From: Todiramphus chloris collaris
Taxonomy: Eukaryota > Chordata > Aves > Coraciiformes > Alcedinidae
Direction: 5' to 3'
DNA length: 64,000 nucleotides
NCBI GenBank assembly: GCA_025345505.1
Contig: JANVCC010000135.1
Span: 62,001-126,000, forward strand
Positions 260-57,244 of the stretch are shown here, piece by piece. Every line of letters starts with the position of its first letter. The stretch's first letter is position 1. The notes beneath the pieces were generated by a model. It had not been told where the DNA came from and searched no databases. It saw only the letters and a list, made by a program, of their open reading frames with translations. Made by a program: the position numbers and the translations under genes.

Positions 260-895
260 GACAGTTGGGGTCCTTACATCACCCTTGTGCTGCATTTACT
301 TCCACGCATCTCCGGCAGCATGGGCAGCAGGTCAAGGAGGGGATCCTGTCCCTCTGCTCCACTCTGGGGAGACCCCCCAAGCCTGCAGTGCTAGGGCCAG
401 CTCTGGCATCCTCAGCACAGCAGAGACAGGGACCTGGTGGAGTGGGGCCAGAGGAGCCCCAGCAATGCTGGGAGGGCTGGAACCCCTCTGCTGGGAGCCA
501 GGCTGGGAGAGCTGAGGGGGTTCAGCCTGGAGAAGAGAAGGCTCCAGGGAGACCTTCTTGGGGACTTTCAGTGCTTCAAGGGGCCTGTCAGAAAGATGGG
601 GACAGACTTTTTAGCAACAGGGCCTGGTATGACAGGACAAGGGGTGATGGTTTCAAACTAAAAGAGGGAAATTTAGACTGGAGAGAAGGAAGAGATTTTT
701 GATGCTGAAGGTGCTGAGACCCTGCCCCTTGTTGCCCAGAGAGGTGGTTGCTGCCCCATCCCTGGAACCATCCCAGGTGAGGTTGGCCAGGGCTCTGAAC
801 AACCAGCTCTAGTTGCAGATGTCCCAGCCCAGTGCAGGGGGGTTGGACTGGATGAGCTTGAAAGGTCCCTTCCCACTCAGAGCAGTCTGTGAGTC
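260..895 (+). repeat. CR1 LINE 3' part
   Basis: The stretch follows the avian CR1 3' region in sense order: the AGCAGGTCAAGGAGGGGATC box, the GAGAAGGCTCCAGGGAGACC box, and the terminal block ending in GGTTGGACTGGATGAGC and AAGGTCCCTTCC. It is 5'-truncated, and short open frames across it are CR1 debris. Confidence 0.85.
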
Positions 896-3049: not shown

Positions 3050-3290
3050 CCCAGAGCCACTGGCACCCTGGGCTGCACCCCAGCAGCGTGGGCAGCAGGG
3101 GAGGGGGGGATCCTGCCCCTCTGCTCCCAGGGCTCTGGGGAGAGAGAGAGACCCCCCTGCAGTGCTGGGGCAGCTCGGGAGTGCTCAGCACAGCAGAGAC
3201 AGGGACCTGGTGGAGAGGGGCCAGAGGAGCCCCAGCAATCTGGGCAACCTGGGTCAGGGTCTCACCACCCTTAGCATCAAAAATTTCTTC
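3050..3290 (+). repeat. CR1 fragment with an inverted CR1 scrap
   Basis: Bases 3050-3245 match the same CR1 segment as at 16920-17100 in sense orientation. From about 3246 to 3290 the sequence switches to antisense CR1 (GGGCAACCTGGGTCAGGGTC), so two pieces are joined head to head. Confidence 0.75.
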
Positions 3291-4892
3291 ATACTTGTGC
3301 TCATGTGCATTTCACTGGGAGGTGAGAGAGTTCAGCAGCATCAGAACAATCCAAGCCAGCACCGAGACTCTGACCCTCTCTTTTTTCCTTTGGTAGTATT
3401 TTGGTCTGGGGCACACACCAAGAAAAGTTTCTAGTCTGTAAAATGAGATAGAAAAAAAAGTGATTTCTTTGTGTTTATTTAAAGATGGACAGTCCCAGAG
3501 AAGGGTGCAAAGGCACTGGGAAGGGACCTGCCAAACTCCAGCACAGCACTGCCTGGGACACGGGGTGGGACAGAGCTATACTGGGGGGTTGTTCTATGTT
3601 AGAAGGAGGCTTATTAAATATTAGACCAGGTATGACAGAGAGCAGAGAAGCTGGGGTGCAGGGGAGCAGGGACGGATACATCTGCAGCCCACATCCTTCT
3701 CCTGCCTCTTGTTTTCCTTCCTCCCTGGACACTGACTCAGCACCAGCAGCCTTTTATCACAGGACAAAACAATCAGTCTCCTTCCTCCCTTCTTTCCAAG
3801 CATCCCATCCGCTGCTTTCAGCGATGGTTCTTTCCTTCCATGTTTCTCTCCTGCACAGCACAGAACAGCCACAGCCCTAATGGGAAAAAGGCTTCTACTA
3901 GAACACCACAAATGGGGCATTTTTGGGATGCAGCCTGAGCCAGGAGTAAAAACCATCTTTGCTCGAAGCAGCCAAGATCCAAACCACTGTTCCCCGGCCA
4001 CAGTGAATGGTGTCGCCTTCACTGGGATCATTTCTGATCACAGGATTTTGTCTCTTGGAGCTGGTTGTGAGAAAAACTGGTCAGGAGAACAGGACCATAG
4101 TGAAGGTGTTGAAAGCCTGGCCAGCAGGTAGCTCCAGGCTCTGGAAATCCTCTGCCTGTATTTTCTGGCCACCCACATACAAGGGGCTGGGCAAAAACCC
4201 CAGAGGGTACCAACCAGTTCCCTTGAGCTGGCCACAGGAAAGTCCTCACCTTGCAGAGAGACCATTTCTCCAGTTCTGTGGAGTCCCTGAGCTATCCCAA
4301 AGCTACCACCCCTCAGAGACCCACGCAAGGTCCTGCTTTTCACCGCACAGCCCTCAGACCTGCTCCACCAACCCAAAAGACTTAAACCAAGGCAGCAGGT
4401 GAGCAAGTAGGTGCAGGGGGTGTGTGGACACCAGGATTGGTGGGCAGTGATCCTTGTCTTTGCCATCACCAGCTCCTGCTTGTAAGATGAAATGGAGAAA
4501 GCACTAAAGTGATGCCCATGGCCCCACAGACTTCAGACCCATCAAGCACTTGCTTCCTGCCATGCAGAGCCAGAGACCAACACGGCAACAGGCATGGAAA
4601 CCAGCAGGAGGAAAAGGAAGAAGCCCATAGGAGGAGAAGGCAGAAAGATGTCTTTAAAAGGACAAAAAGATGCTTCCTGAGCTGAGCACTGACCAACTGA
4701 GTCTCAAGGAACCATCTGTGCTGCAGGGTCCTGCAACAGCTTGTCTCTGGCCTGCTTTTCAGACCCCCAGGTGATGGAACACAGGTAGTTACTGGAACAC
4801 ACCTGCTCGTCCCTGTGCTGCTTTCCAACTTTTACAGCAACCAGAACTCTTCTCCAAGCAGGCGGGTTCTGTCTCAGCCTCAGAGAAGTGAT
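3291..4892. other. Unassigned intergenic sequence
   Basis: I see no recognisable gene, repeat family or splice-bounded coding segment in this stretch. Confidence 0.4.
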
Positions 4893-5125
4893 AGCGAAGG
4901 GGAATCACACAACAGTTTGGGTTGGAAAGGACCTTAAAATTTATCTAGTCCAACACCCCTGCTGTGGGCAGGGACACCTCCCAGTAGACCAGGTTGCTCA
5001 GAGGTCTGTCCTACCTGGCCTTGAACTCCTGCAGGGATGGAGCATCTACTTCTTCTCCAGGCCAGTCTCACCACTCTCAGAGTGAAGAATTTCTTCTAAT
5101 ATCTAATCTAAATCTCTCATCTTTA
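4893..5125 (-). repeat. CR1 LINE 3' end, antisense
   Basis: It starts with the antisense CR1 tail (AACAGTTTGGGTTGGAAAGG, then ATCTAGTCCAACACCCC) and continues into the body through CAGGTTGCTCAGAGG. Confidence 0.85.
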
Positions 5126-6013
5126 GAAGACCTCAGAGCCAGGGTACGTTATCATGGCCAGGAATGGGTTCATAATGTTATCCAGGAGTTGAGGAGGAGG
5201 AGAAGGAAGGAGACCAAGTTCAGACCGCAGACACTAGGCAGGTTACACCCAGCTGGGCACAGGAGGAGATGCTTCCAGGAGAAGCATCAGCAAGGGCTGA
5301 GCAATGGCAGACTCACCATCCTTCCTGGAGAGGGTCCTTCTAAGCCCCGAGTTCATCTGAACTGTAAACATGGTACTCTGGTCAATAAAAGTCTAAAAAA
5401 CTTAGAGGAACAGGCATTTCTGAGGTCATGCTCTTAACTCCCAGAGAGCCCATCCTCTCAGTGCAGAACTCATCAGACACAGGGTCCTGCCCCTCTCACT
5501 CCCCTTACCCTCCTCTTGCCCATTACAAAACCACTACAGGAGACACTGAAAACCTCACGGTTTTGCTAAAGGAGGCTTTTTACATCAGACAATTCCAAGA
5601 CTTCTCGCACTGAAGAAAGGGAAAAAACCCAATTTGTGATGGGAGTTTCCCATTGGAATTGCACGGCCAAAGTTTCATTATTTTGGAATTAAACGTGGCA
5701 GGAGAGAGTGATTTCATCTGCTGGAGTCACACCAGATGCTTTTGTATTTCGAAGGTCCAACTTCTCCAATGGGGACAACCCTGTCTAAAAAAAGTAGGGC
5801 AACTGAGACCCTCTCAGGATGTTTTGGGATGACAAACAGGGAGCTCTTCACTCTTCCTTTTTCTTTTGTTTCATTTTTTTTTTTCCCCTCCTGTCTTTAA
5901 AATAAGTAGGGGGGTGGGGTTGGGGAGCGTGGTGTGAAGCCAAGTTACTGCACACTTTGTGAAATCTTGTACACAGGGAACAAGGACAGGGAGCACAAAA
6001 TTTCCACAACACA
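5126..6013. other. Unassigned intergenic sequence
   Basis: No supported feature. There is a T-rich run near 5858-5885. Confidence 0.4.
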
Positions 6014-6300
6014 TCACAGAATAGTTTGGTTGGGGAGGGAACTTTCAAGCTCATTGAGTCCAACCCCCCTGCACTGAGCAGGGACATCTGCAACTAGAGC
6101 AGGTTGCTCAGAGCCCATTCCAACCTCACCTGGGATGGTTCCAGGGATGGGGCAGCGACCACCTCTCTGGGCAACCTGGGCCAGGCTCTCACCATCCTCA
6201 GCATAAAAAAAAACCAAAAAAACAACTCTTCCTTCTCTCCAGTCTAAATCTCCCTTTTCTAGTCTCAAGCCATCACCCCTTGTCCTGCCACAACAGGCCC
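6014..6300 (-). repeat. CR1 LINE 3' end, antisense
   Basis: Canonical antisense CR1: the CACAGAATAGTTTGG tail, TCCAACCCCCCTGCACTGAG, CACCTCTCTGGGCAACCTGG and the downstream TCACCCCTTGTCCTG box. An A-rich expansion at 6207-6222 interrupts it. Confidence 0.9.
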
Positions 6301-6493
6301 TGCTAATAAATAAATAAATAATTAAGGATATTGTTTGGATTTAAAAAATCCATGAAGTCCAAAATTTACTCATCTAGAGTCTTCCCCACATTAAAGTGAG
6401 ATGATAAAGTTGCCTTCTTGACATTAAGAGTCAGCCTTTTTGGAAACTTAGGTAATAAACCTGGTACTGATTAAGCAGGCCAAAGAGAACTCA

Positions 6494-6790
6494 CAGAATC
6501 ACAGAACTGTTACGGTTGGAAGAGACCTTTCAGATCATCAAGTCCGAACATTAACCCAGGGCACCACTAAACCATGTCCTTGAGCAACACACCTCCACAG
6601 CTTTGAAATCCCTCCAGGGATGGGGACTCCTGTTTCCTCTCGTCCTGTCATTTTTCCTTGGGAGCAGAACCCAACCCCACCTGGCTCCAACCTCCTGAGA
6701 CCCAGAAGGTCTCCCCTGGGCCTCCTTTCCTCCAGGCTGAACAAGCCCAGGTCCCTCTGCCACTCCTCACCAGACTTGTGCTGTAGACTT
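6494..6790 (-). repeat. CR1 LINE 3' end, antisense
   Basis: A second CR1 subfamily. It has the tail TCACAGAATCACAGAA, then GGTTGGAAGAGACCTTTCAG, the GGGCACCACTAAACCATGTC block and CTCCTTTCCTCCAGGCTGAA. Confidence 0.88.
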
Positions 6791-7629
6791 CCTGCTGTCC
6801 AAGCAGGTTAAAGAATCAGAGAATTGAAATTCATCCCTGGTTGGCCACAGGGATGCCCAAACCCCACACTATCGGGAACCAGGGTGAGGAAGAAAAGGAG
6901 ACTAGAGAAATAAAGTCCCTGCTTTAAGACAGGGTGTGTAGCAGACAGACCAAGCAGGAGACACTTTCCAGTGTCCTCGAGATTGTTTAAGGGCTTAAAA
7001 AGCCAGACCTGCGACTAACCCTGAGCCCACACGGTGCCCTAACCTGTAGAATTCTGAACCCTCTTCCCTATCCCCCCTAAATCAGCCCAGGGCTGTTGTG
7101 CTGTGGTGCAGTGGGAAGCAATTAAGAGAGAATAGCTAATTACCACTGATGACAGAGCTTGGCTTCCTTTTCTTGCCCTGGCTTTGCCTTCAGGGCTCTC
7201 AGCAGCCAACAATAGCAGACAAGGGTCATCAAAGCAAGCGCTGAACATCACCCAAGGACGGGCAGCACTGAGCTTAATGGGCAATTAGCACTGCACCATC
7301 TGCACCTCCTCAGAGCCTGCTCCAATCCACACCCCCAGCCCAGGGTTGAAAATGGGAGACTGAGCAAGACCTGAAGAATCCAAAGAGTTACTGAAGGAAA
7401 AAATCTTCAGGGGAGAAAGTTTCTTCAGGGGAGACTCCAGCTGGCTCTTATCCTGGGTGGCCACTGGGGAGTTTTCCCTTTCTCCCCTTTATTTTACCCA
7501 CGCCCCAAAAATGACTTTCTACTGCTGTAGTTGCTGTTCACCATCCTGAGAAGAAATGTGCGTGTGTGTCAGCCTGTCTTGTCATTTTTTTCTGTGCAAC
7601 ACCAAATGGGGGAAATACAGTGACACTGT
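6791..7629. other. Unassigned intergenic sequence
   Basis: No gene or repeat was recognised by eye. Confidence 0.4.
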
Positions 7630-8160
7630 GAGGAGCAGGAAGGAGAATGTGGAGTGGGTTCATTGAGCAGAGTGTGGCCAGCAGGTCAAGGGAAGATCTC
7701 CTACCCCTCTACTCTGCTCTTGTGAGGCCACCTCTGGAGTATGGGTCCAGTTCTGGGCTCCACAGTTCAAGAGAGACAGGGAAACACTGGAGAGAAGCCA
7801 GTGGAGGCTCCAAAGATACTGGGGGGACTGGAGCATCTCTGTGCCAGGAAAGGCTGACAGCCCTGGGGCTGTTCAGCTGCAGAAGAGCAGCCTGAGAGGG
7901 GAGCTGAGCAATGCTGAGCAAGAGCTAAAAGGCATCTGGGGTTCAAAAGGATGGGGCCAGACTCTTGTCAGTGGTGCCCAGTGACAGGACAAGGGGCAAT
8001 GGGCACAAACTGGAATCCAGGAGGTTCCATCTGACCACGAGGAGAAACTTCTTTGGTGTGAGGGTGTGGAAGCCTGTCCTAGGATGCTCAGAGAGGCTGC
8101 AAAGTCTCCTCTGGAGACATTCCAAATCCACCTGGACAACGTGATCCTCTGGACACCCTG
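7630..8160 (+). repeat. CR1 LINE 3' part, sense
   Basis: Sense CR1 of the subfamily with GGGGCTGTTCAGCTGCAGAA and CAGTGGTGCCCAGTGACAGG. It runs to the CACCTGGACAACGTGATCC box and meets an antisense CR1 directly at its 3' side. Confidence 0.85.
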
Positions 8161-8465
8161 TTCCTTGGGAGAAGAGACCAACCCTACCTGGCTCCAACTT
8201 CCTGTCAGGGAGCTGTCAAGAGCCAGAAGGTCTCCCCTGAGCCTCCTTTTCTCCAGGCTGAACAACTCCCAGGTGCCTCGGCCCCTCCTCACCAGACTTG
8301 TGCTCTGGAACCTTCCCCAGCTTCATTGCTGGACACACTCCAGCGCCTTAATGGGAGTGAGGGGCCCAAAACTGAACCCCAGATTCAACAGGAAGCCTCC
8401 CCAGTGCTCAGCCCAGGGGGATGCTCCCTGCCCTGCTCCTGCTGGCCACATGATTTCTTGAGAGC
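8161..8465 (-). repeat. CR1 fragment, antisense
   Basis: Antisense CR1 with AGAAGGTCTCCCCTGAGCCT and TTTTCTCCAGGCTGAACAAC, abutting the sense copy to its left. The two form an inverted junction from different subfamilies. Confidence 0.8.
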
Positions 8466-9689
8466 ACTGCTCTCCCTGGTATTCACAGATAAGGGCACAG
8501 GCAACCCTCCCACAAGGAGCAAGATAACCTCACTGAAGACAGCTACTGCCTTAAATTAGGAGGGAAACTTCAGGCCTGACAGTCTCCACCTGCAGATCAA
8601 AGCTCAGGGCGAGACACCAAAGGACTGGTGGAGCAGCACAAGGGGATGTGTTTCAGGGGACAGGTTTGCTGCTGGAAAAGTGACTGAAAGACGCCCAGCG
8701 TCATCCCTGTCCCTCGACTTTCTTGCCCCCTCCTCTATGTGGTATCAAAATCAGTCTGTCACAGATGGCCCCCATGCCCTGGGACCATGAATAGTTCCCA
8801 CCAACACTCTTGGGACCCAACCAGAGAGGTGTGGAAAGAGTTTTCACCCCGTCCCACAATTCCAACTGCCTCTGACATCCAGGAGAGGGGGGACCATGAC
8901 ATCCCACTGCTGGGATATGTAAAAACTCATCGCTTCACCGTGTGCTGGGACAAGCAGGGGGGTCTGCACCTGTCCCAGGGTGACCACAAAAAACCAAAAC
9001 ACCCTTTCCTACTGTACCCTAACCACGGGGAGGGAAGAGAACCACCACAAACACCCAATCCCAAGCGGCTCTGCCAGGCGCTCATCCTTCAACACCTCAG
9101 GCAAGGGGGATAAGCAGGAGCTTGTAGACCTCCCCCTCACCTCCCCAAGCCTGCCCAGCAGCCCCTGAAGTGTCATGCTGCCCAGTAACAAGGCAGGGGA
9201 GGCCGAGCATCTCTCCCTGGGAGCTGACCTATGGCTGTGCTGCTTCTCCGCAGCCGCACCGGCGCCCGGCGAGCAGACAGAGCCCAGAGACTGCTGCTGC
9301 TGCTGCCAGCACAGAATCCCTGACCTATTTTCCTATACGTGGCCATGCACCAGATCACAAACAAAGAGCTCTTTGGCTTAAGATATTTAAAGGAGAAGAT
9401 ACTCATCTAAACTATCCCCAGAAACCACAGCAGCTCTCATGATGTTTATTATCTTCCTGAGAAGAGCTCTTGTGTGTGGCTGTGGGAAAGGAGGGGAAAA
9501 AAAAATAAACAAAAAATAAGCACAGAGCAGATGGGTAAAAGCAAACCAAAAAGCTCCATTAAGCTGTGAAATCACATTTCTAGGAAAGCAGCAAAAAGTG
9601 ATGTAAGAACTTGAGACTAAACTGAGCCTAGGACGTGATAAGCATGAGAGCGACCAGGACTCACCTATGTGGAAGGGATTAATTTCTAT
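8466..9689. other. Unassigned intergenic sequence
   Basis: No supported gene. An (CTG) run occurs at about 9290-9308 (GACTGCTGCTGCTGCTGCC). No open frame has splice or homology support. Confidence 0.4.
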
Positions 9690-9920
9690 TCTTTTAGGTT
9701 TAGGTTGAAGCTGAGGAACAATTTCTTCCCTGCAGCAGTTGTCCAGGCCTGGCCCAGGCTGCCCAGGGCAGTGGTGGGGTCCCCGTGATCCCTGGAGGAG
9801 TTTCAGAGCTGTGGAGCTGAGGGACATGGGTTAGTGGTGCCCTGGCAGTGCTGGGGGAGCAGTTGGACTTGAAGATCTGAAAGGTCTCTTCCAACCAAAA
9901 CGATTCTGTGATTCTATAAC
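9690..9920 (+). repeat. CR1 LINE 3' end, sense
   Basis: Sense CR1 with GAGGAACAATTTCTTCCCTG, CTGCCCAGGGCAGTGGTGGG, and the 3' tail TCTCTTCCAACC followed by GATTCTGTGATTCTATAA, which is the characteristic 8-bp CR1 end repeat. Confidence 0.9.
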
Positions 9921-10137
9921 AAGCAGTCCCACAGGGATGTCCCCACCTCCTGGCACTGATGGTTGAGCTGCTTGTGCAGCTACTGTCTCTGTGCACATAC
10001 CTGTAGGGGTGAGGACCTCGCAGTTTGGGTCTCAGGTATGGGAACAGATGAAACAAAAGAAAACCCTGAATCTGTGCTGAAAAAGACCCTAAACAAACTC
10101 AGGAGCCCTACAGAGGTTCACAAAGCTGCCTCTCAGA

Positions 10138-10290
10138 GAATCACAGACTGGTTTGGGTCGAAAGGGACCATTCAAGCTCATCCAGTCCCACCCCCCTGCA
10201 CTGAGCAGGGACATCTGCAACTGAAGCAGGTTGCTCAGAGCCCAGGCCAACCTCACCTGGGATGGTTCCAGGGATGGGGCATCACGGAGG
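10138..10290 (-). repeat. CR1 LINE 3' end, antisense
   Basis: Short antisense 3' fragment: AATCACAGACTGGTTTGGGT, CATCCAGTCCCACCCCCCTG, and GGTTCCAGGGATGGGGCATC where homology stops. Confidence 0.88.
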
Positions 10291-13200
10291 GGAGATACGG
10301 GCTGTGCTTGTTGCAGAGCAAGAGCCTGCAAAGAGGCAGTGACCAGAAGCAGACTAGAGAAGTGTGAGCCCATCTCTGAGCCCACAGCATCCTAGTTTGA
10401 TTGGGTTAGATAAGTTCTGTGTTGGGAGAAGCCTCCAGCAGTCAGGGTTGCTGGTTTGCTTCCTATCCTGGACTGGGAGATGCCTTCTCACCCCTCAACG
10501 CCCCGCTGCACGGCACGAAGGATGCAGTGACGAATAACACAGAAATGGTTGCTACAAACAGAGCCACTGACAATAGTTACTCAACATCCCAGGCTGGCAG
10601 CTCTCCTGGGGCTCTCCACGCAGCTGGGACAGGGGCTGCTGCCAGGATTTGTCAGTAATGAACCTGGGGCAACACTCCCCCCCCCCCCCCCATACCAACG
10701 GGGCCAGGCAGGAAGGGAATTAAAAAAAAAAGAGCAAGAATAGATCTCAGTGTCCTGAACAATGAAAACAGGAAAGTCCCTCTGGTCTGGGAAGCCCAGA
10801 GGAGAGAAGCTCAGCAGCAAAAGTTCAGCTCCAGCTCATTTCCCGGCAGCTTGTGGGGTCTGCCCAGCCTCCTGCGGAGGTGGGGGTTAAAAAAAGCCAT
10901 GATGCAGCTCGAGCATCCTGTGAGAGCCAGGGAGGGAGGGAGGGTGGGTACCATCCAGCCTCAGGAGCTGGCAGAGAGGGGTCCGAAGTAGCATTTCACC
11001 CAAACCACCAGCTCTGTCTGCAGAAGCCCCCTCCCCAGTTCCAGCATCCCCCTCTCCCCAGAGAGCCCCGTGCTCTGCATCCCTCTGGGTACAAGGCAGG
11101 GCTTACTGCATCCCCCCAGCCCAGCCCCACATCCCGCCCCGGCACCGAGAAAGCCACCACCGAGCTCTGTCTCAGCACATCCCGTTCCTCCCCCTGCTCC
11201 ATCCTCCCCCCTCCTTTGCCATCCTTTTCATTTTCTGCGTCAGAACCATAAAATGGAGACTGCAGGGAAGGAAAACATCTCTAAGATGGCTGAGGAAGAA
11301 GAAGAATTTGCAGGGCAGTGCACGAGCACCCTCTGCTGCTGGATGAGCTGGGGGGGGGGACACGAGCATCAGGTCTGCAGCCCTGCTCCAGCCCCACAGG
11401 CTCCAGGAACAAAAAGACCCCAAACAGCCTTTCCTGGGTCATTTAAATTGTTCTAGCCAAAATATTTGCTTAAAAAAAAAAAAAAAAAAAATTCAGCAGC
11501 CTTGTTGCTTCCTGAGCTCTCCCGGTTGCCTTTCCCCACCACCTCATTTAGGTTTTGGTGTTCCTCACTGTGTTACAGTCACAATCCTTAAGAAAAAGCC
11601 AGTATTTTGTATTAAAGCTGGCACATTTCACACAACCGATTCCCAACAACTAGCCCTGCTGCCCTCCACATTTCTATATTTGCCCAGCTTTGAGAAAAAC
11701 CCCACCAAATTTCCCCCATATTGAGTCCCACAGCAGGGCGAGCACCCAAAGCCTGGTGGTACTTCTTGTGGGAACATATCTGGGCCCAGAGAAGGAAGCA
11801 AAGGCTGAAGATGGGCACAGGGGGCAGAACCAGCACCCCCCTGAATCAGGGGGCCCAGATGCCACCCCTAGGAGAGGTCCAGGGACCAAAGGGTACGTGC
11901 AAAACCAGCACAAGGACACCCTGCAAGCTGCTCCCTGAGCATCCCAAGGGGTATGGCAGACTAAGGCCAAATCCAGCTGCACCCGAGGCTTCAGAATTCC
12001 CACCAGAACATTGCAGGAAGTTTTTCAAGGATGGGTTCAGAAAGGACCAAAAAGCATCACTCAGCCATGAGATAAAAAAAAATAAAACCCAAACAAAACA
12101 AACCAAACCAAACCACAACAACCCCACAAACAGATCCAGGATCCCAAGTCCTTTGAGGCAACTTAAACACGGAGGAGGATGAAGAAGAAAACAGAAGAGA
12201 GATACAGAATAAACACTTCTATAGGTGACACCAGTTGACACCCTAAGGTGGAAGGATTAAGCCCAGCGAGATGCAGGGTGCCCAGCACCAAGCTGCACCC
12301 ATCCAGCCTGTGAGGACAGAGCCTGGCAAGCACCAGGTCAGGGGCACCAGCACTTACACTCCACGCTGCCCCACGCAGATGGTCCCACTGGCTATATAAC
12401 TACAAAAATCACTTTTAAAGGTCTTTCTGGGGAGAAAACAAGCCTTTTTTGTGGACTCAGGCTGAGGCTGACCTGAAGCTGCAGCTCTGTGGTGATGGTC
12501 CTGCCACAGCAGAACACCCAGGACAATGTGGGATGGAGCAGACACCCAGGGAGGCTCGGTTTTATTATGGGCATGTCCCCTGTCCCATATAGCAGGAGAC
12601 ACATCTTGGGGGGCACTGGGACGATGGGGAGCTCAGCAGGGCGGGGATCAGCACCCAGATGCAGTGACGAGGGGGTATTTTTGTGGTGCTGCTGCATAGG
12701 AAGGGGCAGCAAAAGATGAGGTGCCAGGAAACCTCCTCCTGGGAGCAATGAGGGGGGGGACTGAAAAAGAAAAGAAAAGAAAAAAGAAAAGGCAATATAG
12801 CTCTGGGGCTTCCTGACCACGGGTGTGTTCCCAGCGCACCCTACGTGACTCAGCCTGGGAGTGCTGGGAAAATGAGCCATCAGGGTGGACCCCAGCCTGG
12901 TAAGATGATGCCACGGGCTCAGGAGTGATGGAGACAAGCAGAGCTCTGCGGGAGCCCAGGACTGGGGCTCAGTGCCACTATTGGGCCTGTTGTGTCAGCA
13001 GGGATGGGGGTTTTGGGGGTGGGGGGGGAGAGGCAGGAACAGGGGAGCACAACAGCAGTGCAGTAGCAATGGGCTGAGAGCAGGAATGGGGTGCACTGGG
13101 GAGATGTGGAGAGCCCTGTAACAGCAGGATTCAGGGTGGAGAGGGGCTCGTACAACACTCCAGACACCCCCAGTTTCCTCCAACAGCACAAAATGCTGCT

Positions 13201-14845
13201 AATCCCAGCTCCTGCTCTTAAACCCTCAGAATCAAGCCCCCAAAAGGCTGGTGGTGTTGGGGGGGGGGGGGGGGTTGAATGACACAAGAGCTGCCTTTGT
13301 GTGCCAGGGCAGGTGATTTCTCCCTACACTGCCACCCCCCTCAGCCCCATTTCCCCCAGCAGCAGATGGAGACCCCCTTCCCAATTATGGGCTTGTCACA
13401 GGCAGAATTAAAAGGAAGACAAATCACTCCGAGGAAGCTGTCAGATGGGACAAAGGCTCCTTGAAATGGGAGCTGAGCTGTTCTTTCCAGGTTCAGAGCA
13501 GGGCCGGAGGGAGGGAGGGAGGGCCAGGGGGGGTTCAGCATAAGGAGGGCAGCGGGGGGGGGGCAGGGGGGTGCTGGGGCTGCCAGGGATGCAGAGCAGG
13601 ATGCGCGCGCAGCCGGCACATCCCTTCTTTGTCTGGAAAAGGAGGTCAAAGGGAGGGGGGACTGGAGCTGGGGGGGGGGCTGCAGGGGAGGATGGGGGGG
13701 TGACGGGGGGCTGCGTCAGCCGCACGTCACCAAAGCAGCTGATCCCTTCTCCCAATCCCAGTCCTCTGAGCTCATCTCCGGGATCCGAGCCAATGCGGCT
13801 CAACTGCGCACATCTGGCGGATGAAAGCAGCACTGCAAGGACCTGGAGATGGGAACACACAGCAACGGGGGGCCAGAGGAAAAACCCCACTTTTCAAGGC
13901 CGGGCAAGCCCCAAAACCCACATTAAGCCAAAAAAGCCCTAGAGCACTCCCGGCCCTAACCTGGAGCTCACTCAGGGGTCTCTTGAAGCTCAAATTACCA
14001 AGAAAAACCACTGCCCGGTGCCGACACCCCAGTGCAAACACCAGGGCTGGGTGCTGTGGGCACTACAGGCACAGTCCAGCTCCCAGCATCTCCTAGTAAG
14101 CACCACACACCTTGCAGAGAGCCCACCAGTGACAACCCAAGTACTTCTCGCAGCCTGGGACAGGCAGGAGCTGCACCCCAGAGCTGGGTGCAGCCGTCAC
14201 CCGCAGCACCCCTGAAACCACTGTGGCAGCACCAACACTGACAGGGACAGCAGCAGCTCCTCACTGACCAGGAGGAAGCCCCAGGTCACTGCCTGACCTC
14301 ACACCTACCCACCTTTCTACACATCCTCTGTTAGAAATGTCACCTTCAGGGGTAAAACATCTGCACCAGGATGTTCTGCTGGAGCTGGACCAGCACCCAG
14401 GCACTCACCATTGTCTGTTGTGAGATGAAAATATTGCCTGCTAAAAATCCATGGCAGTGCCACAGAAAGGTGTTGAGCTGGCCATGGTTCTTGGCTCTGG
14501 AGTCTGATACACGTGGGTGGGAAAGTGGGAATATGCAAACACCTCCCAGACCAGCCACCACTCTACCTGCACCTATAGGTTCTGTATGTGCGATGAGAAG
14601 TGACTCTCAGTTTGTCAAACTCCAGAGAACATGCTTAAAACCCTCTTGTGGGACACGACACAGGGAGCTGGCACCCTGCATGTTCTGTGGGGATGAAACA
14701 CAAGATCTAGGGAGAAAGTTCTCCAAACAGGTTCTGCCTCCTTCAAAAAACAAATGAACATTCATTGTCCCACCAGCACTGCTCCCAGAGCCCTAAGTGC
14801 ACTGGTGCTGGTGTGTTCATCACCACTCCAGAGAAACAAGGAATC
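10291..14845. other. Unassigned, partly GC-rich intergenic sequence
   Basis: No gene was recognised. It contains homopolymers: C at about 10678-10691, A at about 11472-11492 and G at about 13260-13274. A G-rich, locally CpG-bearing patch lies at about 13500-13830. It could hold regulatory DNA, but I see no promoter or exon evidence. Confidence 0.4.
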
Positions 14846-15240
14846 AGAAAACCATAGAATTGTTTTGATTGGAAAAGACCTTTCAGATCATCAAGACCAA
14901 CTGTGCCCCCAGTACTGCCAGGGCACCACTAAACCATGTCCTTCAGCACGACAGCTCCATGGCTTTGAAACCCCTCCAGGGATGGGGACTCCACCACTGC
15001 CCTGGGCAGCCTGGGCCAGGCCTGGACAAGCCTTGTGGGGAAGAAATTGTTCCTCAGCTCCAACCTAAACCTCCCTTGGCACAACTTGAATCTGTTTCCT
15101 CTTGTCCTGTCACTTGTTCCTTGGGAGCAGAGACCAACCTCACCTGGCTCCAACCTCCTGTCAGGGAATTGTTGAGAGCCAGAAGGTTTCCCCTGAGCCT
15201 CCTTTTCTCCAGGCTGAACAAACCCAGGTCACACAGCCAC
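14846..15240 (-). repeat. CR1 LINE 3' part, antisense
   Basis: Antisense CR1 of the CACCACTAAACCATGTCCTT subfamily, running through GTGGGGAAGAAATTGTTCCT to CTTTTCTCCAGGCTGAACAA. Confidence 0.9.
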
Positions 15241-16239
15241 TCAGGAAGCAAGAGCAGAGAGAGGGCCAAGAGATAACAGCCACCAGCTCCAACAAGAGAA
15301 ACCCTGACTTCACACAACTCAAATTTGAGAACATCTTCAAGAGAAGATTTTCACAAGAGTGGTTAAACACTGGAGAAGGGAGCCCAGTTACATCTCGAGA
15401 GCTGGGGGAGTTTCTGTCCTTGAAGAGACTCAAACTTCCCTGCAAAAATCCCTCAGCAATCTCTAACTCTGGAGTTAGACTTACTTGGAGCAGGACAGAT
15501 GGATCCAAGCCCTCCAGAGGATCCTTTGAATTTGAATCGTTCTGTGATGCTGGAAAGGTGCTTGCGACCTCCTCACATTCATTCTCCTCAGCAGGCACTT
15601 CTGAAGCAGGATTTGTCCACAAGCCTGGGAGCTGGTAGGCTTCTCCATTTCATCCCAGAATGTACCTGAGCAAAGGAAGAAGACAGAAGTTTCTACCCCC
15701 ATTCATTGCTACTTCTCAGCCAACACTGGCACAACACACACAGATACCCGAGGAAGGAAGAAGCTACAGCTGCAGAATTGTGAAGGCTCTGCATCACCAG
15801 GGAGAGGTGATGGAGCTGGGGGCACTGAGCTGGAGAAGGAAGGAAAAGGAAGGGACAGAGGAGACCCATGTGCCAGGGGTATGGCATCCCTGCAGCAAGA
15901 TGTTTGTGAGCAAGAGGAGGTGATGGCTCCCAGGAGCCTGGAACTCCGAGGGTACGTGAAGCCACATGGGGATCCTTTAAAAGCATTTGTGGGCACCTGG
16001 AGGGGCCAGAGAACCAGAACCAGACATTATGGGAGTTCTGAACAGCATTTTCAGAAAACCCCAAAGTTTCTTTCTCAATAGAAACGTTAGTTTGGGTTCA
16101 CACAAGGTGTTCAGGGCCCTGACTCTCAGCCAGGCGTATAAAGTCCCATTGTCTGTTAATGGTGTCTTAAGTTTCCATGCCTTAGGAGCTGAAGATCTTG
16201 CTGTTTCTGGCCCTTTGGAGCCAAGGAGTCACTGATTTC
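15241..16239. other. Unassigned intergenic sequence
   Basis: Open frames exist on both strands here. None shows family motifs or splice structure that I recognise. Confidence 0.4.
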
Positions 16240-16475
16240 TAGTGATATAGATTAGACAGAAGGAAGTTCTTCACTCTCTGGGTGGTGAGACAGGGGAACA
16301 GGTTGCCCAGGGAAGTTGTGGATGCTCCTCCACCAACTGAAAGGGTTCAAGACCAGGTTGGACAGGGCTTTGAGCAACCTGATCCAGTGGGACATGTCCC
16401 TGTCCATGGCAGGGGGGTTGGAACTGAATGAACTTTAAGGTCCCTTCCAACCCAAGCCATTCTAGAATTCTAGGA
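16240..16475 (+). repeat. CR1 LINE 3' end, sense
   Basis: Sense CR1 3' end with GGAACAGGTTGCCCAGGGAA, TGGCAGGGGGGTTGGAACTG and AAGGTCCCTTCCAACCCAAG, finishing in a degenerate ATTCTAGAATTCTAGGA tail. It is followed immediately by a second CR1 that starts further 5' in the element. Confidence 0.88.
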
Positions 16476-17245
16476 TCTTATTAGATGGACAAGAAATTGG
16501 CTGGATGAGTTAGAGAGTTACAGCCCAATATCCAAATGGGAAACCAGTAATGACTGGTGTCATATAAGGGGCTGTTCTGGGACCACTACTGCCTAATATT
16601 GAAACTGATGACAAAACCAGTGGGACCGAAAGCACCCTCAGCAAGTTTGCAGATGACACCAAGCTGAGTGGTGCAGTCAGCATGCCTGAGGGACAGGATG
16701 GACCCACAGGGACCTGCAAAGGTTGGAGGAGTGAGCCATGCAAACCTCCTGAGGTTCAACAAGGCCAAGTGCAGGGTCCTGCACTGGGGAAAGGGCCACC
16801 CCCAATAGCAATACAGGCTGGGGGTAAAGGCATCGGGAGCAGCCCTGGGGAGAAGGACCTGGTGGTGCTGGGGTGAGAAGCTGGAGCTAAGCCAGCCCCG
16901 TGCGCTGGCACCCAGCAGGCACTGGCACCCTGGGCTGCACCCCAGCAGCGTGGGCAGCAGGGGAGGGGGGGATCCTGCCCCTCTGCTCCCAGGGCTCTGG
17001 GGAGAGAGAGAGAGAGACCCCCCTGCAGTGCTGGGGCAGCTCGGGAGTGCTCAGCACAGCAGAGACAGGGACCTGGTGGAGCGGGGCCAGAGGAGCCCCA
17101 GCGATGCTGGGAGGGCTGGAACCCCTCTGCTGGGAGGCCAGGCTGGGAGAGCTGGGGGGGGTTCAGCATGGAGAGGAGAAGGCTCCAGGGAGACCTTCTT
17201 GGGGCCTTTCAGTGCTTCAAGGGGCCTGTCAGAAAGATGGGGAGG
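16476..17245 (+). repeat. CR1 LINE fragment with reverse-transcriptase remnant
   Basis: This copy reaches into the CR1 ORF2. The frame near 16580-16870 preserves the RT box read as FADDTKLSG (the polymerase YADD-type motif, first residue F), and later EKDLVVLG. Non-coding 3' CR1 sequence follows to the GGGAGACCTTCTTGGGGCC box. It is truncated at both ends, with no intact ORF. The RT box makes the CR1 assignment firm. Confidence 0.85.
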
Positions 17246-18039
17246 GAGATTTTATGATCTGCAGGTGACAGTCCTGACAGAAACCTGCCTCTGACCACCC
17301 CACACCTCTCCCACAGCACAGACAGGGCTCTGCTCCCCCCCAGACCCACCCCAGTCTCTGGAGCAGGGCTCTGAGCCCCGGCTGCAGCAGGGACACCAAG
17401 CTCCATGCAACACAAGAGATCCAGGTGCCACCTGGTGCCCAGCAGCAGCTCTGCACCGAGACCCGACTGCCCAGCGACCAGCGGATCCTTTAACCTGTCT
17501 GCCCTGGAAATGACATCACCGTGGGGACAAGCAGACCCCGACTCCTCTGCAGACACCCCGAGGGCCACCCACTTGTCCCCAGCACCCGCAGCTTAGAGCC
17601 CAGCAGCCAGAGCTGCAGACACACACCAAGGTTTCCTTCCCACTGGTCACTCCTGTGCCAGGAGGAAACTCGTGGCCAGGCTCCTGGGTGCCATGGACAC
17701 CTCAAACTGGGAAACTGGGGCAACAAAAAATAACGGGGAGGCTCAGGAAACCTGCCCCCAGCAAGGCATCAATGCCAGGGGGAAACACAAAGCAGGCGCT
17801 GCCAGTGCCAACAGCAGAGCAAGGAGCAGTGGAAAAAGGACCTCCCAGAGACCTCTGGCTGTCCCTGCTGCTGGTGCCACCAGCCAGGCAGGTCCTGGGT
17901 CCACCCAGAAGGATCAGGGCTGGCCCTGGTGCAAGGCACCAACAGCAGCCACACACTCTGGGGAAGAACTGATTTCTCTGGTGAACACATCGCTCATCTC
18001 CTGACCAAGAACCAGTCTATGGTTTTTTTGATCATGCAG
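17246..18039. other. Unassigned sequence 3' of the DIAPH1 remnants
   Basis: The FH2 C-terminal half of DIAPH1 would be expected around here or further left, but I found no frame matching it. Confidence 0.4.
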
Positions 18040-18295
18040 CAGTGGGTTAGTCAGGAGATTCCTCCCTCCCCTCAGAGCTAAAGTGGACCTCATCATCTGG
18101 AGGGCCTCCAGATCTTCATAAGAGCTTGCTTCGTGAGAGCTGCCAGCTTATACAGAAGACACCCCACAGGTCAGTGATGAAGAACTCACAGGCCACCACA
18201 GCCTTCAAAGGGGGCAGAGGACAGCACATGTCAGCATGCTGCAGGTCAGATGTCCTGCACAGTTTCAGGATGACCAAGCACTTCAGGTCCCTGTG
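18040..18295 (-). pseudogene. DIAPH1: DIAPH1 relic: eroded FH2 segment
   Basis: Read on the minus strand, the frame contains RDLKCLV aligning with the diaphanous FH2 KELKVLD, then PLPPLKAVV against PYQEIKNVI and EFFITDLW against EAVLTESM. After a frame change, YEDLEAL aligns with YDDLAES and STLALRGGRN with GTVPRLRPRLN. Identity is low, but the order is collinear over about 80 residues. Indels and a frame change mean it cannot code for FH2, the actin-nucleating domain of formins. An HRDLK string here mimics a kinase motif, but the other kinase motifs are absent at the right spacing. Alignment was done by eye. Confidence 0.55.
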
Positions 18296-18486
18296 TACTC
18301 TGCCCTGTTGCCTCTGAGTACAAAAGCAGAGAGATGAAACCATCTCCTTCTCCAGAAGATTAGTTTCTCTATAGAATACAGAAAGCAGGGCCATGAAACC
18401 TCTCAGCCAGGGGGTGTGAGGAGATGAGAAAGGATGAGCTTGCTGGGGCGAAAGGTGTATGGTGGCCTTTAGAGTGGAGGTCCTAC

Positions 18487-18811
18487 CTTAGTCTGCTGTG
18501 GTCTTCACAGTTGTATGGCTGGCTGAGAATCTTCTTTGGAGATGATCCCATGGAAGCAGTTGAAGTGCACAGGCTCCCCTAGATGCGAAGCTGAGGGCAG
18601 GAGGGGGAAGCCCCATTCCTCAAGGAAGTGTGGGATGCCAGGACACCCTGGGAGTGGAGGAGCTGGTGAGAAGTCTCCAGAAATAGTCCCTGATAGTGGC
18701 TGTGTGGTGGTAGATGGATGTTCCCTTCAGCGCTTGGAAGCGAAGCTGCAGGGAAGAGTGTGAAGCCATTTCCTGCTTGGTGTCTTCAAGCTCTTCTTTC
18801 AGCTTCTCCAC
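18487..18811 (-). pseudogene. DIAPH1: DIAPH1 relic: coiled-coil/FH1 exon with frameshift and stop
   Basis: A good acceptor (TTTTGCTTCAG) precedes VEKLKEELEDTKQEMASHS, which matches the diaphanous-1 segment just before FH1 (VAKLTKELEDAKKEMASLS). The proline-rich FH1 that should follow is reduced. Only after a frame change does APPLPGCPGIP appear, recalling the PLPGGPGIP units. Downstream, SPKKI matches the TPKKL that opens the FH1-FH2 linker. In a further frame, QL-stop-RPQQTK aligns with QLRRPNWSK, with a TGA where an arginine codon is expected. It ends in a GTAGGA donor-like site. So it has the position and order of a real exon, with two frame disruptions and one nonsense codon. Confidence 0.7.
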
Positions 18812-20420
18812 CTGAAGCAAAACCAAGAACATGACAGAAGTTAGTGCATGCTCAGTTGGCCAGAGCAAACAGGACACCACCCTCAAGCAAATGCCAAGTG
18901 ATCAGGTCTAGCTCAGAGCCCCGTCCTTCTTCTCACAAGATGCTGCCAACCTCCTTTGTCAATGAAAAATGAGCAGAAGGCAGCACAACAGGTGACCTGT
19001 ACGAGCATCTGGGGACTTGACATCCTCCTCCCACGACCTGATGGAGGGAAAGGTGCCTTCCTGCAGCAGGGTGACCTCAGAAGACATCTGGCAAGATACA
19101 GCTGGAGGAACAATGGTGAAGCAGAGTCTGCTCCCAAACTCACAAGTCAGTGGTTGAAACAGGCCTGGAAGACAAGTGGTGGCTCATTAAATTTGTCTCA
19201 TCTGTTCAGAAGCTGGTGAATGGGTATCAAAGCTCCTCAGCAACCGGTGCCTCTGAAGGTCACATGGGGGGGCTGGAGACATAGTGTGGAATGGAAAGGA
19301 AACCCCAGTTCTCTGCACCAGCTGCTAATGTCAGTGTTGGTGATGATCAACAGGGACCAAAGTCTGGGGATCTGCAGGACAGGCAGAGCCTGGGCTCTTG
19401 TGGGGGTGTCCACACCACGGCCAGCCCATAGCCCTCCCCCTCTGACACCTCAGGCACCCTGACAGACCTTCTCTACTGCTGCACCACAGGTCCTCCTCTC
19501 CTCTCTCAGCTTTTGACCGAGCTCAGTGAGATGAAACCTCGTGCTTGCAGTTCCCAGAAGCTCAGAAAGCAGAGGCACCTCCTGGTCACCTCACTTTTGC
19601 CTTGTGATGGGGCAGAGGCAGAGCAGGAGCTGCCACCACCAGCTGCCCAGCCCCAAGCAGCCCAAGGACTGCAGAAAATTAGGGGAATGTTTCCCTCCCT
19701 CTGACCTGAGCTTTTTCATCTTGTCACACAGAACCAGCCAGAGGAAGAAGGGGCCAAACCAGAGATGTCTATCAGAGGAGCCACTCACAAAAGTATGTAG
19801 TCACCAAAAAAGGGATTTCTATAAAAAAAACAACTCTGAGAATATGCTGCTCAACTTGTGAGGGCAGTCTCCAAGTCCAGAGACAAGGCAAGACACGCCA
19901 GGGTCAGTCCCACATAAACCAGGTCTCTCCAGGACAGATCTGGGTGAGGCTGAGCTGAAAGCAGGGTGTGAGGGGAACGCTGGACAAAGCCCAGGACGAG
20001 ACATTCAAGGCAGGCAACTCTATTCATGTGCAACCCAGGATTCAAACCTCTTCAGAGCACACCAAAACCCCTGAGCTGCCTGACAGGCAACAACAGGTAG
20101 AGAATCAGCTCAAGGGAAGCCAGCCCAGGGACTACATTGGAGCTGAGGAGAGATTAAAGTGGTCACCTGTAGACTGATCCTGCTGGCCTCAGGTCTATGG
20201 ACACCATCAAGAGCAGAGCCAGCAGTAAGGTTCAGCATTTACTACCTAGAAATGAAGATTTCTTTTGTTTTATTCAGGGGACTATTGTCTTGGGTCGTGT
20301 TTTAACTTAAGAAACTTTTGAAATGTGTATATAAAAGTGAGATTTTGTGTTGCAGCCACTGCAGAGCCTGGGGTGTCTCCTCATGGTGACCCCAGTGCAG
20401 AGAGGGACAGGGATACTCAC

Positions 20421-20509
20421 GGCACTGGGTGCAGGTGACATCTCACTGGGATCAACCTGTCCTCCTCCCTCAGAGGCTGCTGCTTCTCCTTGTTCAGGTC
20501 CATCTCCAG
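20421..20509 (-). pseudogene. DIAPH1: DIAPH1 relic: N-terminal exon
   Basis: The acceptor TTCTTCAACAG is followed by LEMDLNKEKQQPLREED, nearly identical to the human DIAPH1 N-terminal segment LLDMNLNEEKQQPLREKD. The in-frame continuation (RLIPVRCHLH) no longer matches. Shifting frame gives SEMSPAPSA ahead of a consensus GTGAGT donor, compatible with the decayed end of the same exon. The remaining GBD/FH3 exons, which should lie between this and the FH1 exon, are not visible in the 1.6 kb available. Confidence 0.72.
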
Positions 20510-20629
20510 CTGTTGAAGAAATGTACAGTGGTTCTTAAACCCACTTGCTTGTGGAGTGGCCAAGTTCAGCAAGCAGAGCACCATGTCCAACCCAAGCTCT
20601 TGCACAAATGTGGTGCAAATACAAGTCAT

Positions 20630-20945
20630 CATAGACAGGTTTCAGTTGGAAGGGACCTTTCAAGCTCATCCAGTCCAACCCCCCTGCACTGAGCAGGGGC
20701 ATCTGCACCTAGAGCAAGTTGCTCAGAGACCAGGCCAACCTCACCTGGAATGGTTCCAGGGATGGGGCAGCGACCACCTCTCTGAGAACTTGGGCCAGGG
20801 TCTCACCAGCCTCAGGATAAAAATTTCTTTCCTTTTCTCCAGTCTAATTCTCCCTTTTTTAGTTTAAAATCATCAGCCCTTGTCCTTTCCCAACAGACCC
20901 TGCAGAAAAGTTTACCCCTGTCTTTCCAACAGGCCCCTTGAAATA
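20630..20945 (-). repeat. CR1 LINE 3' part, antisense
   Basis: Antisense CR1 with TCCAGTCCAACCCCCCTGCA and AGGGATGGGGCAGCGACCAC, inserted just upstream (in the sense of transcription) of the DIAPH1 N-terminal relic exon. A TAATAATAATAATAA run follows at about 20950-20966. Confidence 0.88.
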
Positions 20946-21729
20946 CTAATTAATAATAATAATAATAACGTCAGCAAAGAGAAAACTCCTGCAAGAGACA
21001 GGGATTTTTCTCACTAATTAACAGCCCAAACTGGAGGCTAAAGGAGGAGGAGAAGAGCCTGACATTAACATCCCCTCCCCTCCTTAGGCAAGACAAAGGT
21101 TTAAGGGTCTGGAAAACCAGCACCTTCAAACCAAGCTCATTAACTCCCAAAGCCAACGGCTCTAGGACAAAGAGAAGCACAAAGAAACCACCGACCTGGG
21201 AGCAGGACCCTGCTGAGCCAGGCTTTGGATCCCTCCAAAACCTGAAAGCGAATGGAATTCCTCGATCACCCCACTGGCTGAGCACAGCTCCATGTCCTAC
21301 ACATGCTTTGGGAGCTCCCCGGGTGGATTTTCAGCCCTTCCATCAGCCGGGAGTGGAGTCAGGAGCACGAACAGCTCCTGACCCCCCGGCTTGGGGGTGC
21401 CAGGAGCCCCAGAGCCCGGGCTGAGGCCTCAACCAAGGGGCTGAATCGGTATTTCCTGGACCCTCCTGAAAATGCACAATTAAAAATGAAAACAAACAAT
21501 GGAAATACGGATTTATTTCATTTAATTATTAATTCCCCCCCCAAAAAGAGGAAAGCAGCCCAGTCAAGCCCCGAGGACCCCGCATCGCGCATCCGAGCGG
21601 CACCTCACCCTAAACGAACCCCTAAAGAGCCCCAAACCTGGGTTTATACCGATAATTTAGAGAGGGGAGGGGGGAACCGAAGTTTTTGTTGGCTCCTCTA
21701 AAAGCTGAAGGTGCAGGAGAAGCCGCGGG

Positions 21730-21771
21730 ACCCCTGACCGAGGAGCAGGGACCCCTGACCGAGGAGCAGGG
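21730..21771. repeat. 21-bp tandem duplication
   Basis: Two perfect copies of ACCCCTGACCGAGGAGCAGG plus G lie inside the CpG island. Confidence 0.9.
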
Positions 21772-22008
21772 ACCCAGCCAGGTCCTCTCCCGACCCCCAG
21801 GAGCCGCCCCCGCGGTCACCTGCCGACCTCCCGGTCCCACCCCCCTGGTCCTCTCCCGTCTCGCTACTGGGGAACCCCCCCCGGCTTCGCTTACGGTCGC
21901 CGAGACCCTGCCCGGGTCCCCCCAGCAGCCCCCAGCCCAGACCCAGGACCCCCCGGTCCCCCCCGTGCTCACCGCCGCCCCGAGCGCCAGCAGAAACCTT
22001 CGCGCCGC

Positions 22009-22024
22009 TCATGAATATTCATGA
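22009..22024. promoter_or_regulatory. Palindromic octamer (MORE-type) element
   Basis: TCATGAATATTCATGA is a perfect palindrome. Its core ATGAATATTCAT fits the MORE consensus ATGMATATKCAT, bound by POU/Oct dimers. It lies at the edge of the CpG island beside GC boxes. Confidence 0.6.
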
Positions 22025-22579
22025 GGAGCCGCCTTCCGGCTCCGCCCACCCCCGCCCTAAGCCCCGCCCCCCAGTGCGGGGAGCACCTCCCCCGGGTCCT
22101 AGCGCCGCAGGCCGGAGGGGGCCGGGCTGGGCACAAGGGGGAAGAAAAGGCAAGAAAAAAACCAACACAAGAGGGGAACCCCCCCTAAATCCCTCCTCTG
22201 GCCCCGCTGCCCATTGTCCCCTCAAATCCTGAGCCTTCGAGCCACGTCATTGCACAGGGTGTGAGCTCAAAGGCTTCCTGAGGATAATTAAATGAGGTCT
22301 CGTATTACCCAGGGAGAAAAAATATTTAGGGAGCAGCAGGTCAGGGGCAGCCAGGGCTCAGGAGGTGCAGGTTTGACACCCGAACTGGGATGTCTCAGGT
22401 GGTGCTGGGGGTGTGGGACTCAGCCTGGTCTTACCTCAGCCTGGGGTGATGCTGGTGTGGATGGAGAGATGCACTTTGCTCACACCAGAGGAGTGGAAAC
22501 GTGGCAATTGACCTCAATCCGCGATTTCACCGAGTTTGACAGTAAAGGTGACTGGTTTAAGGAAATTTGATGGTGCCTG

Positions 22580-22925
22580 GTCCCAACCTCCCTCCTCCAG
22601 CAGGGTCGCCCAGAACAGGGGTCCCTGGATTGCACTTTCCAGGAGGATTTGGACTCTCTCCAGCGAAGGAGACTCCACAGCCTCTGTAGGTAGTCTGGGA
22701 CAGGCTCCAATACCCTCAAAGCAAAGAAGTTTCTCCTCCTGGGTTCCAGTTTGTGTCCATTACCCCTTGTCCTGTCCCTGGGCACCACTGACAAGAGTCT
22801 GGCCCCATCCTCTTGCCCCCCAGGCACCCTTTAGCTACTGATCAGCTGCCCACTCTGGATGCTCTTCTGCAGCTGAGCAGCCCCAGGCCCCTCAGCCTTT
22901 CCTCAGCACTGACATGCTCCAGTCA
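22580..22925 (-). repeat. CR1 LINE fragment, antisense
   Basis: Antisense CR1 with GAAGGAGACTCCACAGCCTC, CTCCTGGGTTCCAGTTTGTG and GGCACCACTGACAAGAGTCT. It lacks the extreme 3' tail. Confidence 0.85.
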
Positions 22926-23259
22926 CAAACAGCTTTAGTAAAGAGACTACAACTCAGACTCCCTGATATTTAAAACCACTGCAGGAAAAGTTTCTGGAAT
23001 CAGCTCTACAGCTTCTCACACAGCTTCTACTGGATTTGGAGGAATTACTGGGAGCATCCAGCAGCCCACCTGGCCTCGGACCAGGGACTTCAGTGCTCTC
23101 CTCATCCTGCACTGAGGCTGAAGAACCCCCAGGGTATTCTCCAAGGAGCTGGATTCCCTCCTGGCAATGTTCTCAAGCCTTGGGAGGCCAGGAGCCAAAA
23201 ATATTGTGAGGATTAAACAGACCAACAACAGGTCAGGTAAGAAAAATACGGCCTCTTCC

Positions 23260-23265
23260 TTTAAT
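23260..23265 (-). terminator. Candidate HDAC3 poly(A) signal
   Basis: The plus strand reads TTTAAT, which is ATTAAA on the HDAC3 strand, 1.1 kb past the stop codon. No stronger AATAAA was noticed between the stop and here. Confidence 0.3.
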
Positions 23266-24368
23266 GGTTAAAGACATCAGTAAACAAACCGACCAGGACA
23301 GACAGAGGCTAAAGCCCTCCCCTGTTCCCCAGCAACATGCTCCAAACCACCACAGGTACCAGGCAGTGACTCCAGCGAAGAAGCAGCAGAGTCTGGGATG
23401 GGAGGGACAACCAAGAGAAACCTCTGCCATGTGAGGGCAAGAAGATGGGACTGGGAGGAAGCAGCTTCCCTCACCCCTGAGCAGAGGGACAGCTCCTGGG
23501 GATCTCCAGGAGCGAAGGGTGTCTGCTCTGTGCAGACCCCAGCTCTTGCTAAGACACAGAAGGACCCCGAGTGACCTTGGATAACACATCTGGAAGCTAC
23601 ACCAGAGGTGCTGGACACGCTACGAATGGACCTTGGCAGCCAAACCTCTGCTCCACAGGGATTTTAGTCTCCCAAAGAAGAAAGAAAACAAGGAAGTGAG
23701 GTCCAGCTCGGCAAAGCATTGCAGGAGTCACTTGTGAATGCACAACGGAGCGTGGGGGGAACATGCAAGGCTACACTCTGCAGACATTCTTCTGTCCTGC
23801 TCCAGGGACGCTCCTGACCCCTATTCCACGATGGGTTTTGTCTTCTCAGTTTTCCTTGATCTGTGGAGCATCAGATGGTTTGAAGGGACATCAGGAAGCA
23901 ACTCTCAGTGCAGGCTTCAGAGGACAGCCACCTGAGGAGCTGAGTGAGGGGGCCTGGGGGAAGTAGGATGGATGAGGTCTTCCTGCTGCAGAGAGGCAGA
24001 GGCTGGAGGCACAGCTCCCACCTTGCTGGTAGAAGCCCACCCAGGGGGTGACCGAGGTGGCCCCGGGCAGGCTTTGAAGGCAGTTGCACAGCAGCCAGCC
24101 CAGGGCCAGCGTGGCTTGGAGCACTACGTGACATCTCCATTTCCCCAGAGCAGTGACAACCTGAACCATGATGTGTCAGAAAGCAAAGAACATGTTTCCC
24201 TGCTCTCTGCCTCTCCAGGTCGCAGACGTCTGCGGTGGTGGTGTCTCTGCTGCCGCCCGCATGTGATCGAATCCAAAGGGAGGGCCCAACTCGCTCCCAC
24301 GTGGCCCAGTTACCTGCTCATGTCCAATGTGGGACACCCCCACAGTCCAGAGTCCCACACCAGCTCTC

Positions 24369-36664
<12,296 letters not shown>

Positions 36665-51831: not shown

Positions 51832-57237
<5,406 letters not shown>

Positions 57238-57244
57238 CGTTGGC

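Follow-up and report, generated by a model that had tools for sequence, protein, structure and literature searches.

DIAPH1 (mDia1) is a central RhoA effector, and the roles of its DID, FH2 and DAD lie in holding the protein inactive, responding to Rho and building actin. In anole and human, the gene is encoded on the minus strand and flanked by the protocadherin cluster and Hdac3 (PMC2764143, Table 1). Whether Todiramphus chloris collaris still carries it is the question raised by a 64,000-nucleotide stretch of its genome (hereafter the window; positions 62001-126000 of contig C94 within a 1.17-Gb, 889-contig assembly), for which an initial annotation had proposed a decayed DIAPH1 beside HDAC3, in the same orientation, with either loss or relocation of the gene.

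The window was searched by tblastn with four DIAPH1 proteins (emu P0227, ostrich P0231, leatherback and softshell) in which FH1 was masked, and with a profile of 20 DIAPH1 proteins that did not include the window's own sequence, run on all open stretches of at least 12 residues in six frames. In addition, the parts of emu DIAPH1 outside FH1 were divided into 51 overlapping pieces of 40 residues, and these were scanned over positions 8001-23500 of the minus strand. HDAC3 served as the positive control for the search. Feature coordinates are summarized in Table 1.

Table 1. Features of the DIAPH1 locus, in window coordinates, with the evidence on which each call is based.
Feature	Position	Strand	Evidence
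GBD exon splice acceptor TTTCTTCAACAG	20510..20521	-	sequence
GBD exon relic	20421..20509	-	tblastn, profile, frameshift-tolerant alignment
GBD exon splice donor GTGAGTAT	20413..20420	-	sequence and read-through protein models
FH1 exon splice acceptor TTGGTTTTGCTTCAG	18812..18826	-	sequence
FH1 exon relic, 325 bp	18487..18811	-	end-to-end alignment to emu
FH1 exon splice donor GTAGGA	18481..18486	-	sequence; directly after NWSK equivalent
CpG island	21201..22400	.	observed/expected 0.5-0.69, 400-bp windows
HDAC3	24372..36664	-	protein matches to human query

The neighbours of the locus are conserved in order, and HDAC3 is intact. Its matches to the human protein span residues 1-93 and 95-428, and its exon cores contain no internal stops. 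On the opposite side, left of the window towards the contig end, three PCDHG constant exons were located (C94:21545-21604, 36090-36176, and 40980-41222). The DIAPH1 relics described below lie on the minus strand between these two neighbours, which is the orthologous position; the order PCDH-Diaph1-Hdac3 is that reported for anole and human, where Diaph1 spans 70.6 kb and 104 kb, respectively (PMC2764143, Table 1). The interval from PCDHG to HDAC3 measures approximately 45 kb in this assembly, and GC content at the locus is moderate. With respect to missing or masked sequence, the window itself holds no N, and the sole run of N in C94:1-126000 comprises 100 bases at C94:44684-44783, elsewhere in the same interval between PCDHG and the relic, about 3.5 kb past the last PCDHG exon and outside the window.

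Beyond HDAC3, RELL2, FCHSD1, and ARAP3 were not confirmed, seven of the nine frames scanned having no Pfam family; an SH3 piece at 52165-52677(-) from the same scan would fit FCHSD1. CR1-like repeats, recognised by eye, are also present. An open 347-residue receptor frame (7tm_1 by Pfam) occupies 60151-61191(+), its nearest solved structures being proteinase-activated receptors 2, 4, and 1, followed by P2Y8. Table 1 of PMC2764143 gives five genes on the 3' side of the protocadherin cluster, and no such receptor is among them. A damaged receptor-like stretch in the list of open reading frames (about 58600-58900, plus strand) resembles this frame and is perhaps a decaying tandem copy.

Two exons of DIAPH1 could be recognized at the locus, the first of which is the N-terminal exon named in the initial annotation and corresponds to a GBD exon. 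Its peptide begins with LEMDLNKEKQQPLREEDRLI, the emu counterpart with LDMNLNEEKQQPLREKDIMI, and its second half is damaged by deletions. Emu DIAPH1 matched LEMDLNKEKQQPLREEDRLI at 20509-20450(-) with 70% identity and an E value of 0.003, and the same site was found with ostrich (E 0.003), leatherback (E 0.006), and softshell (E 0.007). When frameshifts were allowed, the GBD exon scored 78 here and 38 in the next of 304 segments.

The second is the FH1 exon, which reads VEKLKEELEDTKQEMAS ... PGCPGIP ... QL*RPQQTK (asterisks mark stops). Emu DIAPH1 matched QVEKLKEELEDTKQEMASHSS at 18814-18752(-) with 67% identity (E 0.006), and the site returned E values of 0.023, 0.055, and 0.074 with ostrich, leatherback, and softshell, respectively. 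Judged by the exon edges, KEELEDTKQEMAS, previously read as the exon before FH1, is the start of this FH1 exon, and the supposed distorted beginning of FH2 corresponds to the FH1-FH2 linker alone, with no FH2 relic. The emu FH1 exon (the coding piece compared is 510 bp) could be aligned end to end over 18814-18487. The aligned stretch takes in PGCPGIP, which emu also has, P*GMG.PPP, PKK, and QL*RP...K; the best alignment requires five frameshifts, and there are two TGA stops. The change of frame within FH1 and the replacement of a linker arginine codon by TGA (18507-18505) are thereby borne out, and a second TGA lies at 18622-18620. The exon scored 200, the highest of 304 segments of 420 bp (maximum of 100 shuffles, 90), and the FH1-FH2 linker alone scored 122 vs 84 for the next segment. 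The runner-up for the whole exon (184) comes from a proline-rich repeat near 57 kb, where a low-complexity array with Ala/Pro-coding frames (about 57200-57600) mimics FH1 in searches.

Both exons retain a splice acceptor and a splice donor, and three of the four edges agree with protein models that read through them, the exception being the edge before LDMNL. Read-through models run on from TSKA into VS, which fits a GTGAGT-type donor at the end of the GBD exon; foreign sequence in model P0169 stops right before VAKLSKELED, marking the FH1 exon edge; and turtle model P0163 reads past the FH1 donor from NWSK into VRPANC. Because splice edges are kept at both exons, the relic is not a retrocopy, as the initial annotation had argued.

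Short fragments of this kind might be chance matches or belong to another formin, given that single peptides are about 20 residues long and by themselves of moderate significance (E 0.003-0.008), and that FH1 is of low complexity, the repeat near 57 kb scoring 184 against the FH1 exon. Several results speak against this. Only two sites in 64 kb fell below E 0.1 with emu DIAPH1, the next emu match being at 0.45, and the lowest E value across the four queries in a reversed-window control was 0.59. The three fragments originally singled out rank first to third of all open frames in the profile search (E 0.0004, 0.0004, and 0.008; next 0.087), and they are collinear, in the order, strand, and place expected, with splice edges. 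Emu DIAPH1 scored 76, 71, and 69 on the three pieces vs 52, 28, and 36 for DIAPH2 and 54, 24, and 49 for DIAPH3, the latter two being human sequences with an uncertain register in the coil piece. Six other DIAPH1 proteins scored 72-76, 52-66, and 69-92 (frog without the linker piece), such that DIAPH1 of seven species outscores human DIAPH2 and DIAPH3 for the pieces scored. DIAPH2 and DIAPH3 are of the same formin subtype as DIAPH1, but are found at other loci and fit the relic pieces clearly worse. On these sequence comparisons, the relic descends from DIAPH1 and not from a paralogue, and an origin by chance or from another formin is exceedingly improbable.

The remainder of the gene was not found. 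Between the two relics (18827-20412, minus strand), 1.6 kb yielded no remaining GBD, DID, dimerisation, or coiled-coil exon above the nulls and no repeats in common with the rest of the window; the claim that the GBD/FH3 exons are missing from this gap holds, except that one GBD exon is the relic at its edge. Downstream, at positions 1-18486 of the minus strand, neither FH2 and DAD nor any further DIAPH1 exon rose above chance by tblastn and profile (and, from 8001, by the piece scan), in agreement with the lack of an FH2 C-terminal half noted earlier for these 18 kb. This includes 18040-18486, without DIAPH1 signal above the nulls, so that the relic span first given as 18040-20509 reduces to the two exons. 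C94:1-62000 likewise yielded no DIAPH1 (lowest E value 0.15 by tblastn and 0.2 by profile), and neither DID nor FH2 exons were detected over the remainder of the 45-kb interval to PCDHG. Of the 51 emu pieces, five cleared both nulls by a margin above 6, and four of these belong to the relics.

The fifth is an FH2-like scrap, LSFDLQVETVRPEV, at 8607-8566(-), which scored 47 (nulls at most 38), yet returned a tblastn E value of 3.9 and a profile E value of about 11 and was attributed to chance; the match beside it at 8174-8087 is inside a repeat (7675-8450). Also rejected were a DID-like match at 5293-5198 with two stops, out of order (E 1.3-2.3), and, in the left flank, C94:41276-41163 (E 0.15), an antisense overlap with the last PCDHG exon.

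Compared with intact DIAPH1 (mDia1; emu, ostrich, turtles, mammals), the relic shares locus, orientation, GBD/FH1 residues, and exon edges; it differs in that most exons were not found, that frameshifts and stops interrupt the reading frame, and that FH2, DID, and DAD are absent. In place of GBD-DID-DD-FH1-FH2-DAD in one open transcript, there are only damaged GBD and FH1 exons, one of which alone bears five frameshifts and two stops. Without DID, FH2, and DAD there is no working formin, given that the autoinhibitory hold, the response to Rho, and actin building would all be lacking. It is very improbable that the animal has an intact DIAPH1 and that an assembly error accounts for this stretch, as the window has no N, HDAC3 just upstream is intact, and the damage is scattered decay with no single breakpoint. 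Based on the intact HDAC3 on one side and the PCDHG constant exons on the other, the conserved orientation and order, the splice edges, and the frameshifts and stops, we consider DIAPH1 to be, with high probability, a unitary pseudogene, dead in place. The DID, dimerisation, FH2, and DAD exons, which were not found, were apparently lost by deletion or drift, and the two remaining exons have gathered frameshifts and stops. A similar case is the human relic of PHCF, a PH-domain formin described in PMC5047451 as a unitary formin pseudogene surviving as scraps at its conserved locus; PHCF differs in belonging to a separate formin subtype that placental mammals lack (PMC5047451).

A real relic could nevertheless coexist with a working DIAPH1, relocated or in a tandem copy, in sequence missing from or masked in the assembly, such as the 100-N run between PCDHG and the relic or a region that is hard to sequence. 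Many avian genes called missing are described as escaping standard sequencing (PMC12954441), and N runs at other loci (60 bases within the FH2 exon at C10, 860 bases at C11) demonstrate that part of the genome is missing or masked, so the assembly may be incomplete. Against this, GC at the locus is moderate, C94:1-62000 is without DIAPH1, and a search of the 1.17 Gb for FH2 (PF02181) returned 38 matches distributed over 14 loci, with C94 not among them. Among the 37 that entered the paralogue comparison (all except C27:10025158), three FH2 exon matches are DIAPH2-like, three are DIAPH3-like, and none is DIAPH1. Among the loci compared, FH2 exons that look DIAPH-type occur only at C33, best fitted by DIAPH2 (138, 80, and 96 summed bits vs 115, 68, and 76 for DIAPH1), and at C10, best fitted by DIAPH3 (186 and 88 vs 142 and 62 for DIAPH1). 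The best identity to emu DIAPH1 FH2 is 67%, at C33, a value far below what would be expected of a bird DIAPH1; at all other loci, C10 excepted, identity does not exceed 47% among the matches listed (above 45 bits). Given that FH2 exons of DIAPH2 and DIAPH3 were detected, an intact DIAPH1 FH2 should have shown likewise. A working copy elsewhere is therefore unlikely, and of the two outcomes left open by the initial annotation, loss of DIAPH1 in T. chloris collaris is favoured over relocation. With the gene lost, Rho-driven linear actin assembly would rest on the retained DIAPH2-like and DIAPH3-like genes.

A CpG island occupies the expected site of the DIAPH1 promoter and exon 1. While its observed/expected ratio is 0.5-0.69, the window median is 0.19 and 400-bp windows between 18.0 and 21.0 kb reach only 0.04-0.15. 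Exon 1 was not recognised in the island; the sole tblastn match (leatherback, 21888-21754, E 0.094) is G-rich and was not accepted. CpG would be expected to have been depleted by now had the DNA been methylated, so the island may have stayed free of germ-line methylation; its promoter may have outlived the gene and could still start a non-coding transcript. One might go further and suppose that the residue remains in use, with a short transcript that starts at this promoter, runs through the preserved splice sites and acts as a non-coding RNA or a regulatory element. This would be consistent with the contrast in CpG content and the retained splice signals, but the relic frames are broken and the island may serve another transcript, and we regard such use as having a small, though not negligible, chance of being real.

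Loss of the gene appears to have occurred within birds. DIAPH1 with formin domains is present in emu (1204 residues) and ostrich (1201 residues, the record being partial), so birds began with the gene, and the loss would postdate the divergence from the lineages of emu and ostrich. Over readily aligned codons, 45 of 68 encode the same residue as in emu, a level that neutral simulation reproduces with about 0.2 substitutions per site (compatible range, 0.15-0.3). This estimate errs on the low side, since the count was restricted to alignable codons, and it also takes in change preceding the loss. At an avian neutral rate near 2 per billion years, it would point to tens of millions of years or more.

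The only named birds among the best 120 DIAPH1 matches are emu and ostrich, and a second set of the best 120 matches includes no named bird; since the first ends at 2128 bits, the absence of other named birds is weak evidence. A chicken "DIAPH1" is named in PMC6855842, PMC7528462, and PMC12000514, and a gene of that name has been placed on GGA4, where a SNP at 6.28 Mb lies 286 kb away and PCDH19 about 1 Mb away (PMC3630158). Human DIAPH2, RPA4, and PCDH19 share one duplicated interval (PMC11506946). A position near PCDH19 is thus the DIAPH2 neighbourhood, which makes the name weak evidence for retention; the chicken gene called DIAPH1 is, by its neighbourhood, probably DIAPH2, and we gave these papers little weight as evidence against loss. 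Loss may accordingly be wide among neognath birds. A more specific proposal, to which we assign somewhat less than an even chance, is that of a single loss deep in neognaths (chicken, duck, songbirds, and the rest) with retention in palaeognaths, in which the chicken "DIAPH1" is DIAPH2, most living birds use DIAPH2 and DIAPH3 alone, and the CpG-island promoter survives. A deeply conserved gene lost within birds has a published parallel in DCC (PMC5327424, PMC5327406), whereas no report of DIAPH1 loss was found in the accessible parts of the literature searched on DIAPH1 in birds.

The gene thus appears to be lost here, while mammals, turtles, emu, and ostrich retain it. A bird lineage without DIAPH1 would suggest that the two other Diaphanous formins can bear its load, and avian work that names DIAPH1 may concern DIAPH2. 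In human, DIAPH1 mutations cause hearing loss (PMC5735594) and, according to a title cited in PMC5047451, microcephaly. Emu and ostrich against other birds form a natural comparison and, if the loss is indeed deep in neognaths, it would amount to a natural knock-out of a gene tied to human deafness and microcephaly.
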